Origin: Streptomyces sp. NBC_00461
GTDB lineage: Bacteria > Actinomycetota > Actinomycetes > Streptomycetales > Streptomycetaceae
Assembly (NCBI RefSeq): GCF_036013935.1
Contig: NZ_CP107902.1
Location: forward strand, 1,426,001 to 1,490,000
Direction: 5' to 3'
DNA: 64,000 nucleotides
Shown in pieces: positions 1 through 3,625 of the stretch. The notes under the pieces were generated by a model, which was given only the letters and a program-made list of their open reading frames with translations, searched no databases and was not told the DNA's origin. The position numbers and the translations under genes are program-made. Position 1 is the stretch's first letter; the number at the start of each line of letters is the position of its first letter.

Positions 1-380
1 GGGGAGGCGTTGAGGGCGAGCCAGGCGACGTAGGACGGGTAGGCCTGGCAGCCCGGCAGCGGCTCGTATGCGCGCGTCCGTGCCTCGTCGACGCCGCACG
101 CCGCCGCGAACGGTTCCAGCCGCTCCCCCGCCAGCGCCTCGCCCTCGGCGAGCATCTCGAAGAACGCGGCCGCCTCCGGCTCCCCGGTCGCGCGCTGCGC
201 CAGGTGCAGGAACGCGCGGCGGTCCGCCGGGATCACCCGGCGCTGTTCCAGAGCGAGCGTCGCGAGTGTGTCGCGGGAGGCCTCGCCGCGGGCGATCAGC
301 GGCACGAGTGCGTTGGCCTGCGGGTCCGGGGCGAGCAGCGCGGTGGTCGTCTCCAGCAGTTCCGTGGCCGTACGCGTCAT
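1..380 (-). CDS. TenA/PqqC-fold protein, N-terminal part (runs off left edge)
   Basis: Only the first 126 or so residues are inside the window; the gene continues past position 1. The helical, Ala/Leu/Glu-rich sequence (start MTRTATELLETTTALL) resembles the TenA/THI-4/PqqC group with a haem-oxygenase-like fold, members of which are often labelled transcriptional regulators in Streptomyces. No catalytic residue can be judged from this part. I chose ATG at 380 because GGAGGA lies 4-5 bases upstream; another in-frame ATG is at 392. It is divergent from the decayed rppA-CYP158 cassette. Family assignment is by general resemblance, so the function is open. Confidence 0.55.
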   Translation of the reverse strand, partial: MTRTATELLETTTALLAPDPQANALVPLIARGEASRDTLATLALEQRRVIPADRRAFLHLAQRATGEPEAAAFFEMLAEGEALAGERLEPFAAACGVDEARTRAYEPLPGCQAYPSYVAWLALNAS

Positions 381-566
381 CGCGTCCTCCATGGGTTCCG
401 ATGTGGGACTCCTGGCTTCGACCCTGGCACGGGTCACCGATTCGGAGCAGCCCGACGCGAGATCGTCGCCCGCTCGGGTGATCGTGGACGAACCACCCCG
501 CAGAGGTGAACCACTTTCCGACCTGGGAGCCGCAGGCCTTCCGGACGGCGAAAGCAGGCGCGGTTC

Positions 567-880
567 ATGGCGACTTTGTGCAGACCCGGTTCTGGGCGAA
601 GGCCCGGGTCCCGCCGTCGTCCAGCGGGCGCTCGACGACGCCGAGCTCCTCACCTCGCTGTGCCACCAGCCCACCGACCTGGGCGTCGGATCCCTGCTCT
701 CCAACGGCCTGTTCGGCGACGGGACCGCCTCCGACCTGGACTGCTGCATCATCCACGCCGGCGGCCCGCGCATTCTCGACGACCTCAGCAAGTTCCTGCG
801 GGTCGATCCGCACACCTTCCCGTTCAGCCGGGCCACGCTCACCGAGTACGGCAACATCGCCGGCGCCGCCCGGCTGAAGA
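567..880 (+). pseudogene. rppA: rppA remnant: type III polyketide synthase with several internal deletions
   Basis: Four separate pieces of a 1,3,6,8-tetrahydroxynaphthalene synthase stand in the correct order within about 310 bp, where an intact gene needs about 1.1 kb. They are the N-terminus MATLCRPG (567-590), a helix PAVVQRALDDAELL, the segment SLCHQPTDLGVGSLLSNGL, and the active-site region HAGGPRILDDL through LTEYGNIAGA. The first piece is in a different frame from the others; the rest share one frame, which stays open into the downstream P450. The catalytic-cysteine segment, which in full-length RppA lies between the second and third pieces, is gone, and so is the C-terminus. The His and Asn motifs remain. 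The product cannot be active. Comparison is with remembered RppA sequences. Confidence 0.85.
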
Positions 881-897
881 GACGGAGTGAGTACGGC

Positions 898-2112
898 ATG
901 ACCGAAGAAGCCCTCACCGAGACAGTCCCGCCGATCCGGGACTGGCCGGCCCTCGACCTGACGGGCGTCGACTTCGACCCGGTGCTCACCGAGCTGATGC
1001 GCGAGGGCCCCGTCACCCGTATCCGGCTGCCCGACGGCGAAGGCTGGGCCTGGCTGGTCACGCGCCACGACGACGTGCGCACGGTGACCGACGACCCGCG
1101 CTTCAGCCGCGAGGTGGTCATGGACCGGCCGGTCACCGCGCCCGCCCCGCACTTCATCCCGCAGCGCGGCGCCATCGGCTTCCTCGACCCGCCGGACCAC
1201 ACCCGGCTGCGCGGCTCGGTGGCCGCGGCCTTCACGGCCAAGGGCGTGGAGCGGGTCCGCGAGCGATCACGGCGCATGCTGGACGAACTGGTCGAGGAGC
1301 TCCTCCAGGACGGCCCGCCCGCCGACCTCACCGCGGCGGTCCTCAGCCCCTTCCCCATCGCGGTGGTCTGCGAGCTGATGGGTGTCCCGGCGGCCGACCG
1401 GCACGCCATGCACACCTGGACCCAGCTGATCCTGTCCTCCTCGCACGGCGCGAAGGTCAGCGAGAAGGCCCAGCACGACATGGGCGCGTACTTCGCGGAT
1501 CTCATCGGACACCGGGAGGGCAGCTCGGGCGAGGACGTGACGTCGCTGCTCGGGGCCGCCGTCGGCCGCGCCGAGATCACCCTGGAGGAGGCCGTCGGCC
1601 TCGCCACGCTCGTCCAGATCGGTGGCGAGGCGGTCACCAGCAACAGCGCCCAGATGTTCCACCTCTTGCTGACCCGCCCGGAGCTGGCCGAACGGCTATG
1701 CGACGAGCCGGAGATCCGTCCCAGGGCCATCGACGAACTCCTGCGCTACATCCCGCACCGCGCGGCCGGTCCGCCGCGCATCGCGAGGGAGGACGTGGAG
1801 ATCAGTGGCGTACGGATCCGCGCGGGCGACCCGGTCCACGTGTCGTACCTGGCCGCGAACCGCGACCCGGAGGTCTTCCCCGACCCGGAGACGATCGACT
1901 TCCTGCGCGCCCCGAACCCCCATGTGTCGTTCGGCTTCGGCCCCCACTACTGCCCGGGCGGCATGCTGGCCCGGCTGGAGTCCGAGCTGCTCGTCGACGC
2001 GCTGCTGGACGGGGTGCCGGGCCTGAAGCTGGCCGTACCGCCGGACCGGGTGCCGCCCTTCAAGAAGGGGGCGTTGATCCGCGGTCCCGAAGCCCTGCCG
2101 GTCACGTGGTGA
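898..2112 (+). CDS. Cytochrome P450, CYP158 family (flaviolin-coupling type)
   Basis: A full-length 404-residue soluble P450. The haem loop FGFGPHYCPGG carries the ligand Cys352, and the ExxR motif is E280-L-L-R283. The I-helix reads GGEAVTSN, with Ala245 and Val246 where most P450s have an acid/threonine pair; this is a known feature of CYP158A2, which couples flaviolin to biflaviolin and triflaviolin. The overall sequence closely resembles S. coelicolor CYP158A2 as I remember it. The ATG at 898 has GGAG 10 bases upstream. It sits between two wrecked pathway genes (rppA remnant before, cupin remnant after), yet no frameshift or stop is visible in it. It therefore either uses a substrate from elsewhere or is newly orphaned. 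Confidence 0.93.
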   Translation: MTEEALTETVPPIRDWPALDLTGVDFDPVLTELMREGPVTRIRLPDGEGWAWLVTRHDDVRTVTDDPRFSREVVMDRPVTAPAPHFIPQRGAIGFLDPPDHTRLRGSVAAAFTAKGVERVRERSRRMLDELVEELLQDGPPADLTAAVLSPFPIAVVCELMGVPAADRHAMHTWTQLILSSSHGAKVSEKAQHDMGAYFADLIGHREGSSGEDVTSLLGAAVGRAEITLEEAVGLATLVQIGGEAVTSNSAQMFHLLLTRPELAERLCDEPEIRPRAIDELLRYIPHRAAGPPRIAREDVEISGVRIRAGDPVHVSYLAANRDPEVFPDPETIDFLRAPNPHVSFGFGPHYCPGGMLARLESELLVDALLDGVPGLKLAVPPDRVPPFKKGALIRGPEALPVTW

Positions 2113-2119
2113 GCGGCCG

Positions 2120-2330
2120 GTGACCGCGACGGAGGGCCTGCTGGTCCCGCAGGGCCACGGCAGGGTCGTCCGGACCCCGGCCCAGCGCGTGACCTTCAAG
2201 GCCACCGGCACCCACTTGCGCACCGCCTCGCCTTCGAGCCGCGGGTGCGCACCTCCGACAACTGGCAGCGCCGGCGGTCGAGTTCGGGCAGCCGGGTGGT
2301 CCGTGCGACACCGGGCACGGTCCCTGTCGG
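2120..2330 (+). pseudogene. Cupin oxygenase (mom-type) remnant
   Basis: The first 34 residues (GTG start at 2120, then TATEGLLVPQGHGRVVRT) match the small cupin protein that normally follows rppA and CYP158 and helps form flaviolin from tetrahydroxynaphthalene. After THLR the frame is lost. A later piece in another frame, AFEPRVRTSDNWQ followed by GSRVVRATPGTV, continues the same protein. The stretch between them, which should hold the cupin metal ligands, is missing, and so is the 3' end. The remnant stops against the convergent acyl-CoA dehydrogenase gene. This is the second deletion-damaged gene of the cassette. Assignment rests on remembered homologues. Confidence 0.75.
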
Positions 2331-2333
2331 GCG

Positions 2334-3560
2334 CTACCGGATCGGCATCCCCGACAACGTGCGCGCGATCACCAGCCGCTGGATCTCACTCGTACCCTCG
2401 AAGATCGTGTAGATCGCGGCGTCACGGTGCATCCGCTCCACCGGGTACTCCCGGGTGTAGCCGTTGCCGCCGAGGATCTGGACGGCCTGGGCCGTGACCT
2501 TCTTCGCGGTCTCGCTGGCGAACAGCTTCGACATGGAGCCTTCGGCGGCCGTGAACTGCTTGCCGTTGACCGCCATCCAGGACGCCCGCCAGACCAGCAG
2601 ACGAGCGGCGTCGATGGACGTCCGCATGTCCGCGAGCTGGAAGGCGACGCCCTGGTTGTCGATGATCGGGCGTCCGAACTGCTCACGGGTCGTGGCGTAG
2701 TCGAGGGCGACCTCGTACGCGGCCCGAGCGGTGCCGACCGCCATGGCGCCCACCGCGGGGCGGCTCGCCTCGAACGTCGCCATGGCAGCGTTCTTCACGC
2801 GCTCACCGCCCGCCTTGGCCCGCTCGCGGGCTCGCGCCAGACGCTCGTCCAGCTTCTCCTTGCCGCCGAGGAGGCAGGAGCCGGGGACGCGCGCGTCCTC
2901 CAGGACGACCTCGGCGGTGTGCGAGGCGCGGATGCCGTGCTTCTTGAACTTCTGGCCCTGGGACAGGCCCGGCGTGTTCGGCGGGACGATGAAGGACGCG
3001 TGGCCCTTGGAGCCGAGCTCCGGGTCGACGACCGCGACGACGACGTGGACGTTGGCGATGCCGCCGTTGGTCGCCCAGGTCTTCGTGCCGTTGAGCACCC
3101 ACTCGTCCTTGGCCTCGTCGTACACGGCGCGCGTGCGCATGGAGGCCACGTCGGAGCCGGCGTCGGGCTCGGAGGAGCAGAAGGCCGCGACCTTGACATC
3201 GTTGGCGTCGCCGTACATCTGCGGGATCCAGGTGCCGATCTGTTCCTCGGTTCCGTTGGCGAGAACGCCCACGGCGGCGAGGCCGGTGCCTACGATCGAC
3301 AGGGCGATGCCCGCGTCGCCCCAGAACAGTTCTTCCATCGCCGTCGGGATGCCCAGACCGGTGGGGTCGAAGTACTGCTGGGCGTAGAAGTCGAGGGAGT
3401 AGATGCCTACCTTCGCGGCCTCCTGGATGACCGGCCAGGGAGTCTCCTCACGCTCGTCCCATTCGGCGGCCGCGGGGCGGATGACGTCGGCGGCGAAGCC
3501 GTGCAGCCAGTCCCGGACCTCCCTCTGTTCGTCGTTGAGCTCCATGGTGAACTCGGCCAT
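2334..3560 (-). CDS. Acyl-CoA dehydrogenase
   Basis: A 408-residue FAD-dependent acyl-CoA dehydrogenase that would introduce the alpha,beta double bond in acyl-CoA, in fatty or branched-chain acid breakdown. The C-terminal signature [11 protein letters not shown] contains the glutamate expected as catalytic base, and [11 protein letters not shown] and [10 protein letters not shown] are family blocks. Between the beta and C-terminal helical domains is a charged stretch rich in Arg, Lys and Glu (around residues 220-240) that is longer than in many relatives. Start ATG at 3560 follows GGAGGGG; a longer frame upstream lacks such a site. It is divergent from a TetR gene, and inverted repeats in the gap suggest that regulator controls it. 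Substrate range is not readable. Confidence 0.93.
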
Positions 3561-3588
3561 GTCCCCTCCAGCGGCGGTGCCCTCTATT

Positions 3589-3625
3589 GTTACTAGCGGT
3601 AACCCGAGTCTGTTACCCACGGGTA
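3589..3625. promoter_or_regulatory. Candidate TetR operators between acyl-CoA dehydrogenase and its regulator
   Basis: GTTAC-N5-GTAAC (3589-3603) is a perfect inverted repeat. A second one, TACCC-AC-GGGTA (3614-3625), follows 10 bases later and shares the GTTACC start. Both lie in the 172-bp divergent gap. Their symmetry and place fit operators for the TetR protein encoded at 3733, but binding is inferred. Confidence 0.5.

Follow-up and report, generated by a model that had tools for sequence, protein, structure and literature searches.

A partly decayed operon, probably a former flaviolin operon, around a CYP158A2-like cytochrome P450 in Streptomyces, and the recurrent loss of rppA and a momA-like gene beside such P450s

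The window analyzed here is the whole 64,000-nucleotide stretch G000:C1:1426001-1490000 (strand +) of a 10.37 Mb, single-contig Streptomyces genome, of which we examined the first 8 kb. At its start, an open CYP158A2-like cytochrome P450 gene lies between the remains of rppA, which codes for a pigment-producing enzyme, and those of a momA-like cupin gene, with the following features:

375..566, strand +: upstream leader, common to intact rppA loci (window 375-587 is 86% identical to the leader plus rppA start of locus L036)
567..890, strand +: rppA pseudogene, placed by aligning its DNA pairwise with intact rppA genes; doubles as an open frame of 107 codons, ATG 567 through TGA 888-890
567..587, strand +: fragment 1, the rppA start, approximately rppA nt 1-21 (MATLCRP; last 3 bases ambiguous), from pairwise DNA alignment
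592..653, strand +: fragment 2, rppA nt 222-284, with a single base missing between 609 and 610, from pairwise DNA alignment
654..724, strand +: fragment 3, rppA nt 504-574, following a 219-bp loss that takes out Cys138, from pairwise DNA alignment
725..868, strand +: fragment 4, rppA nt 779-922, following a 204-bp loss and including the codons for His270 and Asn303, from pairwise DNA alignment
875..890, strand +: native rppA 3' end including the stop codon TGA 888-890, following a 121-bp net loss, from alignment to L037
898..2112, strand +: CYP158A2-like cytochrome P450, open, 404 aa, from homology; carries the substitutions N65D, V291A and L293P, with one codon deleted from the PHRNAVGL loop and one inserted close to the C-terminus
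2120..2322, strand +: momA-like (cupin) pseudogene surviving as two pieces, 2120-2225 and 2226-2322; 103 bp are lost internally and the 3' part is missing
2334..3560, strand -: acyl-CoA dehydrogenase-like gene, a conserved neighbor used as tree marker; its best NCBIfam matches are acyl-CoA dehydrogenases, every one below its cut-off

The leader, which is the probable promoter and ribosome-binding region of rppA, was aligned with a query starting at position 375, and the similarity may extend further upstream. No mobile element was noticed on reading window positions 1-3600 by eye. The gene order resembles that of the Streptomyces coelicolor rppA operon sco1206-1207-1208, given in PMC4573997 as THN synthase, CYP158A2 and SCO1208, from which the window differs in that both rppA and the momA-like gene are inactivated, and in that the P450 is altered at Asn65 and in the 289-294 loop.

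An earlier note on this DNA had read positions 567-880 as an rppA gene that internal deletions had cut down to fragments in their original order, a reading that both protein and DNA comparisons bear out, except that the remnant extends to 890, at the end of its native stop codon. In a phmmer comparison, window 565-897 matches the S. coelicolor THN synthase (1u0m) with an E-value of 1.6e-34 in three in-order pieces, covering residues 88-103 (weak alone, with an i-Evalue of 4.5), 175-202 and 268-318, and the Pfam model Chal_sti_synt_C scores 28.1 bits on the remnant against a cut-off of 27; the similarity to type III polyketide synthases, whose absence the note had named as grounds for discarding its reading, is thus clear. 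Each junction could be placed, as the note had proposed, by alignment with intact rppA genes (1065 bp), for which we used those of L036 (Streptomyces sp. NRRL S-646), L037 and L069. The placement rests on pairwise DNA alignments, as a MAFFT alignment of the window with its relatives misplaced the fragments and was set aside, and coordinates are given for L037, with which L036 agrees except at the last join.

In this alignment, the leader (447-566) is followed by rppA nt 1-18 at 567-584, an ambiguous stretch at 585-591 (CCCGGTT, corresponding to rppA 187-193), rppA 222-239 at 592-609 and 241-284 at 610-653, one base having gone from a CCCC run between 609 and 610. Positions 654-724 then correspond to rppA 504-574 and 725-868 to rppA 779-922, followed by a second ambiguous stretch at 869-874 (rppA 1003-1008) and the end of rppA at 875-890. 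DNA identity to intact rppA is 0.89-0.96 in the blocks 610-653, 654-724 and 725-868. In total, 324 of 1065 bp are left, with segments of 168, 28, 1, 219, 204, 80 and 41 bp missing (741 bp, or 247 codons); the two short ambiguous blocks may be due to chance, and the number of deletion events in rppA is therefore 5 to 7. Microhomology at the joins, judged by eye on the alignment, amounts to short matches only (CCC at join 1, a single C at join 2 and approximately GGGA at join 3).

The claim that the catalytic cysteine segment is lost while the His and Asn motifs remain likewise held, as Cys138 falls inside the 219-bp loss and the His270 and Asn303 codons inside the block 725-868. All three residues are present in 77/77 full-length rppA rows used as a yardstick, whereas the remnant lacks a Cys-His-Asn triad in one reading frame, Cys138 being deleted and the frame broken after block 1. 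Judged from its sequence, window 567-890 is a pseudogene of the THN synthase RppA and not a member enzyme. A search of the window genome found no RppA besides this remnant, the next type III polyketide synthase being 33% identical over residues 65-346. Taken alone, the rppA remnant is ordinary deletional gene decay, caught midway.

An assembly or sequencing error in the window genome, for which only the caution of the earlier note speaks, is an extremely unlikely explanation of the remnant, because a separate, slightly diverged database sequence (P0046) carries the same joins at 98% identity with substitutions of its own, and related loci carry different deletions of rppA. This 574-aa protein, which represents a cluster of 18 member sequences and lies on a contig of 12,271 bases, is identical to the fused window frame discussed below at 563/574 residues, across every join. 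Its P450 part shares N65D and L293P with the window but retains Asn289, and the one-codon loss at position 289 in the window is therefore probably later.

The native ATG at 567 (MATLCRP) is out of frame with blocks 2-4 following the net loss of 197 bp in the first region, and the 121-bp net loss in the last region returns the native stop codon to the frame of this ATG, producing the open 107-codon frame. The RppA frame of blocks 2-4 is in turn open into the P450, as the earlier note had stated, and forms ORF 268-2112. The note had also considered it odd for random decay that the later junctions keep the frame, a point that is not supported. While the main losses, of 219 and 204 bp, are divisible by 3, as is the 168-bp loss if the first loss is truly split, the net losses of 197 and 121 bp in the first and last regions are not; intact L036 rppA has one alternative frame without stops and another with 9. 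We simulated random deletions and scored an outcome as open when translation from the native ATG either reached the P450 start or fused with the P450. This held for 43% of runs in which the same five deletion lengths were placed at random, for 46% of those with four random deletions and a further 1-2 bp, and for 87% of those with one random deletion. As an open frame is expected this often by chance, frame-keeping was dropped as evidence.

It is very improbable that ORF 268-2112 yields a P450 in which an RppA-derived stretch serves as a functional extension of the N-terminus. The frame is open, and P0046 is predicted as a single protein; however, its pieces lack most of RppA and would not be expected to fold, the P450 match in the named loci mostly starts at the native ATG position without any extension, and such a fusion arises in a proportion of 0.157 of simulations with four random deletions and 0.214 of those with a single one. 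Gene callers may thus join rppA remnants onto the P450, as in the case of P0046, which calls for caution.

We consider it rather unlikely, although less so than the fusion, that the remnant acts as a translation relay, in which ribosomes initiating at the former rppA ATG translate the short frame and then restart at the P450, with selection for P450 expression keeping the remnant open. An open upstream frame that ends at the downstream start is present in the window, where ATG 567 and TGA 888-890 share a frame and the gap from the native TGA to the P450 ATG is 7 nt, identical to that in L036. Furthermore, all five broken loci found to keep the native ATG are open to the P450 start (the window over 107 codons, L111 over 134, L082 over 29, G342 over 8 and G159 over 358), the stop overlapping the P450 start codon in L111, G342 and G159. 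The three S. coelicolor genes are described as apparently translationally coupled in PMC4573997, and short intergenic distances are reported to favor translational coupling in general in PMC10666635. Against this, the simulations leave the frame open in 43-87% of cases by chance, for which reason the relay is retained as a mere rival; on visual inspection, each of the three reading frames near the P450 either terminates in the vicinity of the P450 start or runs on into the P450, and L062, G381, G234, G200, G241 and G199 manage without an rppA start.

The gene that follows the P450 in intact relatives is a momA-like cupin of 173 aa. Its S. coelicolor counterpart SCO1208 is called a P450 homologue in PMC4573997 and its product a cupin in PMC10879549; in our judgment, the length of 173 aa is a better fit to the cupin label. 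Searching the window genome with momA recovered the remnant pieces (residues 1-40 and 71-104) and otherwise matches of 36-37% identity only. Across the loci sampled, rppA and momA are lost together: an intact momA adjoins the P450 in 78/78 rows with intact rppA, and is missing or cut in 10/10 rows in which rppA is lost (intact momA thus being absent in 10/10 against 0/78). Cupins of the momA type, 48-54% identical, are found elsewhere in the genomes of L082, G234 and G381, and no other above 42% identity was found in the remaining rppA-lost genomes in a search across all 10, apart from remnants.

These rows come from two samples, with one genome per species, and since all loci were selected through similarity of the P450, retention of the P450 as such proves nothing. 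The named loci are the best 80 of 250 P450-bearing relatives; the second sample is a fixed draw of 392 Streptomyces genomes, in which P450 places at E-values up to 1e-150 were compared by eye with the approximately 150 RppA places listed and with the best RppA E-values, with DNA being fetched for the doubtful ones, such that further cases of rppA loss among the 392 genomes may have been missed. Intact rppA was defined as at least 330 aligned residues with no stop, beside the P450; the tally of 104 obtained with the RppA query includes L001, a homologue of 28% identity. The labels of G314 and G159 for rppA and momA were set by hand, their stretches being clipped, and as G314 duplicates L039 with identical rows, the 78 intact rows are 77 distinct ones.

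Intact rppA lies beside the P450 in 77 of the best 80 (of 250) named loci, the exceptions being L111, L082 and L062. In L111, rppA residues 1-22 and 244-351 survive in a single frame; L082 has a remnant of 29 codons, and in L062 the 3' tail alone is left. At least six further rppA-lost loci besides the window, G342, G381, G234, G200, G241 and G199, were found among the matches listed for the 392 genomes. In G342 (L157, reverse strand), the ATG and a few further codons are all that is left of rppA immediately 5' of the P450 start, forming a frame of 8 codons that ends in a TGA overlapping the P450 ATG, and in the other five rppA is nearly or wholly gone. In G159 (L156, approximately positions 1245-2318), indels displace the rppA reading frame over nt 89-385, after which it is restored, with momA intact and Asn65 kept, which would represent either a very recent loss or a sequencing error. 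The reverse loss is seen in L171, L172 and L173 (G239, G228 and G280), where rppA and momA are intact and the P450 is missing from the locus. The earlier note had suggested related strains as a source of intermediate forms, and none of the window's own remnant was found in the best 80 of 250 named relatives or the fixed draw of 392 Streptomyces genomes.

Elsewhere in the ten rppA-lost genomes, no RppA above 33% identity was found except in G241, where an RppA of 65% identity lies at G241:C669:19068-20117, while the P450-linked rppA of this genome is lost. A search for short RppA-like proteins gave 45 matches, which are truncated RppAs; 12 were inspected, and many lie on short contigs and were excluded as cases. 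We also observed two RppA-like database proteins, P0036 and P0038, with a stretch that is apparently frame-shifted and then restored, and these may be sequencing errors.

Two trees were used to count the losses. The acyl-CoA dehydrogenase tree, built for 83 of the 89 loci (excluding L038 and L050, which gave no match, and L045, L049, L052 and L110, which were too short), needs 8 changes for 11 broken rows including G159, of which 5 are forced by well-supported branches. The P450 tree, built from 89 rows with codons 65 and 176 removed, requires 5 changes for the 10 lost rows, all of them forced. No separate losses were counted within the G342/L062/L082 group, as these loci cluster in both trees, or for G200 and G241 with G234, as the first two are sisters and G234 is near. 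Judged from both trees, rppA was thus lost at least five separate times among the sampled loci. A single, horizontally spread orphan P450 does not account for this pattern.

The orphan P450s, that is, those left by rppA, have changed in parallel. Among the 78 rows with intact rppA, 172 P450 columns are invariant, and the orphans have changed 5 to 26 of these each (9 in the window), whereas intact rows, when omitted singly, show at most 5 such changes (median 0). Asn65 is replaced in 10/10 orphans (by D in 7, E in 2 and G in 1), where all 78 others have N, and Gln176 is changed in 9/10, the window being the exception; all 10 retain the ELLR motif and the heme Cys. The changed invariant columns are concentrated in the regions assumed to be the substrate-recognition sites (SRS), which hold 39 of the 57 changed columns, compared to 78 of all 172 invariant ones (Fisher p 2e-5). 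Asn65 is hit in 5/5 lineages, and a column hit in all five arose in 15 of 40000 random redraws and, with the redraw confined to the SRS regions, in 115 of 40000. Counted as independent pairs, Asn65 goes in the same direction in 5/5, with a sign-test p of 0.0625 that is the minimum possible with 5 pairs.

Beyond the 78 rows, Asn65 is present in 30/30 further rppA-adjacent P450s, a group in which some species may already be present in the first set, and which includes the P450 of the frame-disturbed L008 (G159). Five more P450s without an adjoining rppA comprise L011, L033 and L014, which are G234, G200 and G241 again, plus G139 (L151), with Asp at position 65, and the CYP158A1-like G250 (L152), with Asn65; CYP158A1 itself has Asn at this position.

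The window P450 has its best solved-structure match in CYP158A2, aligned over the full length with an E-value of 5e-221 for both 1s1f and 1t93. It resembles this biflaviolin synthase (1s1f, 1t93, 5de9) in keeping the heme Cys and ExxR motifs of a CYP158A2-type P450, and differs from it by N65D, V291A, L293P, a codon lost at 289 and a codon gained near the C-terminus. It thus lacks both Asn65 and the PHRNAVGL loop of the rppA-linked members, and has undergone a 3-bp loss and a 3-bp gain without any frame-breaking change.

In light of these comparisons, we read the window as a partly decayed flaviolin operon of the order rppA, CYP158A2-like P450 and momA-like cupin, from which an orphan P450 is left, with a probability of roughly 0.85. 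Several separate internal deletions have inactivated rppA and the cupin gene, such that THN would no longer be made through this locus. Between the two ruins, the P450 stays open behind the old rppA leader and start codon, from which leader it would be expressed. The same partial loss arose several times in the sampled Streptomyces, and the P450, freed of its partners, has changed mainly at probable substrate-recognition positions, Asn65 being replaced each time; its use of substrates may be relaxed or altered.

What has become of the orphan is a separate question. There is close to an even chance that the P450 is also being lost, being open for lack of time, with the changes at Asn65 and in the SRS regions reflecting relaxed constraint. 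The dN/dS values among the P450s of G234, G200 and G241 are high, at 0.52-0.60, where rppA-linked pairs at dS 0.2-0.3 reach 0.45 at most, in line with such decay, although they fit a change of use equally well. The window loop PHR-AAGPPRIA, with the Asn289 codon deleted and L293P, is absent from the 78 rppA-linked rows, where the loop is conserved, and the simulated chance of the window branch acquiring no stop through all of its substitutions is 0.22. The dN/dS of the window P450 itself against L036, L037 and L069 is 0.26-0.34, compared to 0.11-0.13 for those three among themselves, and is raised solely against its own sisters, since rppA-linked pairs at dS 0.2-0.3 average 0.28 (5-95% range 0.13-0.41, n=144), a range that includes these values. 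Several observations, however, argue against decay of the P450. At least 7 deletions have hit rppA and momA (1587 bp), whereas the 1215 bp of the P450 contain none that breaks the frame, and with random placement over the three genes the chance of the P450 escaping them all is approximately 0.019; the heme Cys and ELLR motif are retained in every orphan; and the P450 is open at 10/10 rppA-lost loci, against simulated no-stop chances of 0.055-0.084 each on three longer branches, in a simulation that overstates the case by treating the whole branch as neutral. In addition, Asn65 is replaced in 5/5 lineages.

More tentatively, and short of even odds, loss of the partners rppA and momA may repeatedly make the P450 a new enzyme, with Asn65, mostly Gln176 and nearby substrate-site changes re-aiming it, and with the window and P0046 as an early stage in which the old operon is still visible. 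We lean slightly toward relaxed constraint with some function remaining in the orphan P450, which is possibly repurposed.

Bacterial deletional pseudogenes are typically lost through several internal deletions, as is the case for rppA in the window. Unlike the usual examples, the window locus is one of several in which the genes on either side have been lost and the one between them has stayed. In titles and the openings of abstracts, searched largely outside the subscription literature, we found no publication on P450s of this kind that persist after rppA has gone. Among the sampled loci, rppA and momA have disappeared at least five separate times, and each time the P450 is altered at the same site; this amounts to a natural experiment, which makes testable both the tie of Asn65 to flaviolin coupling and the role of CYP158 enzymes without a polyketide synthase partner.
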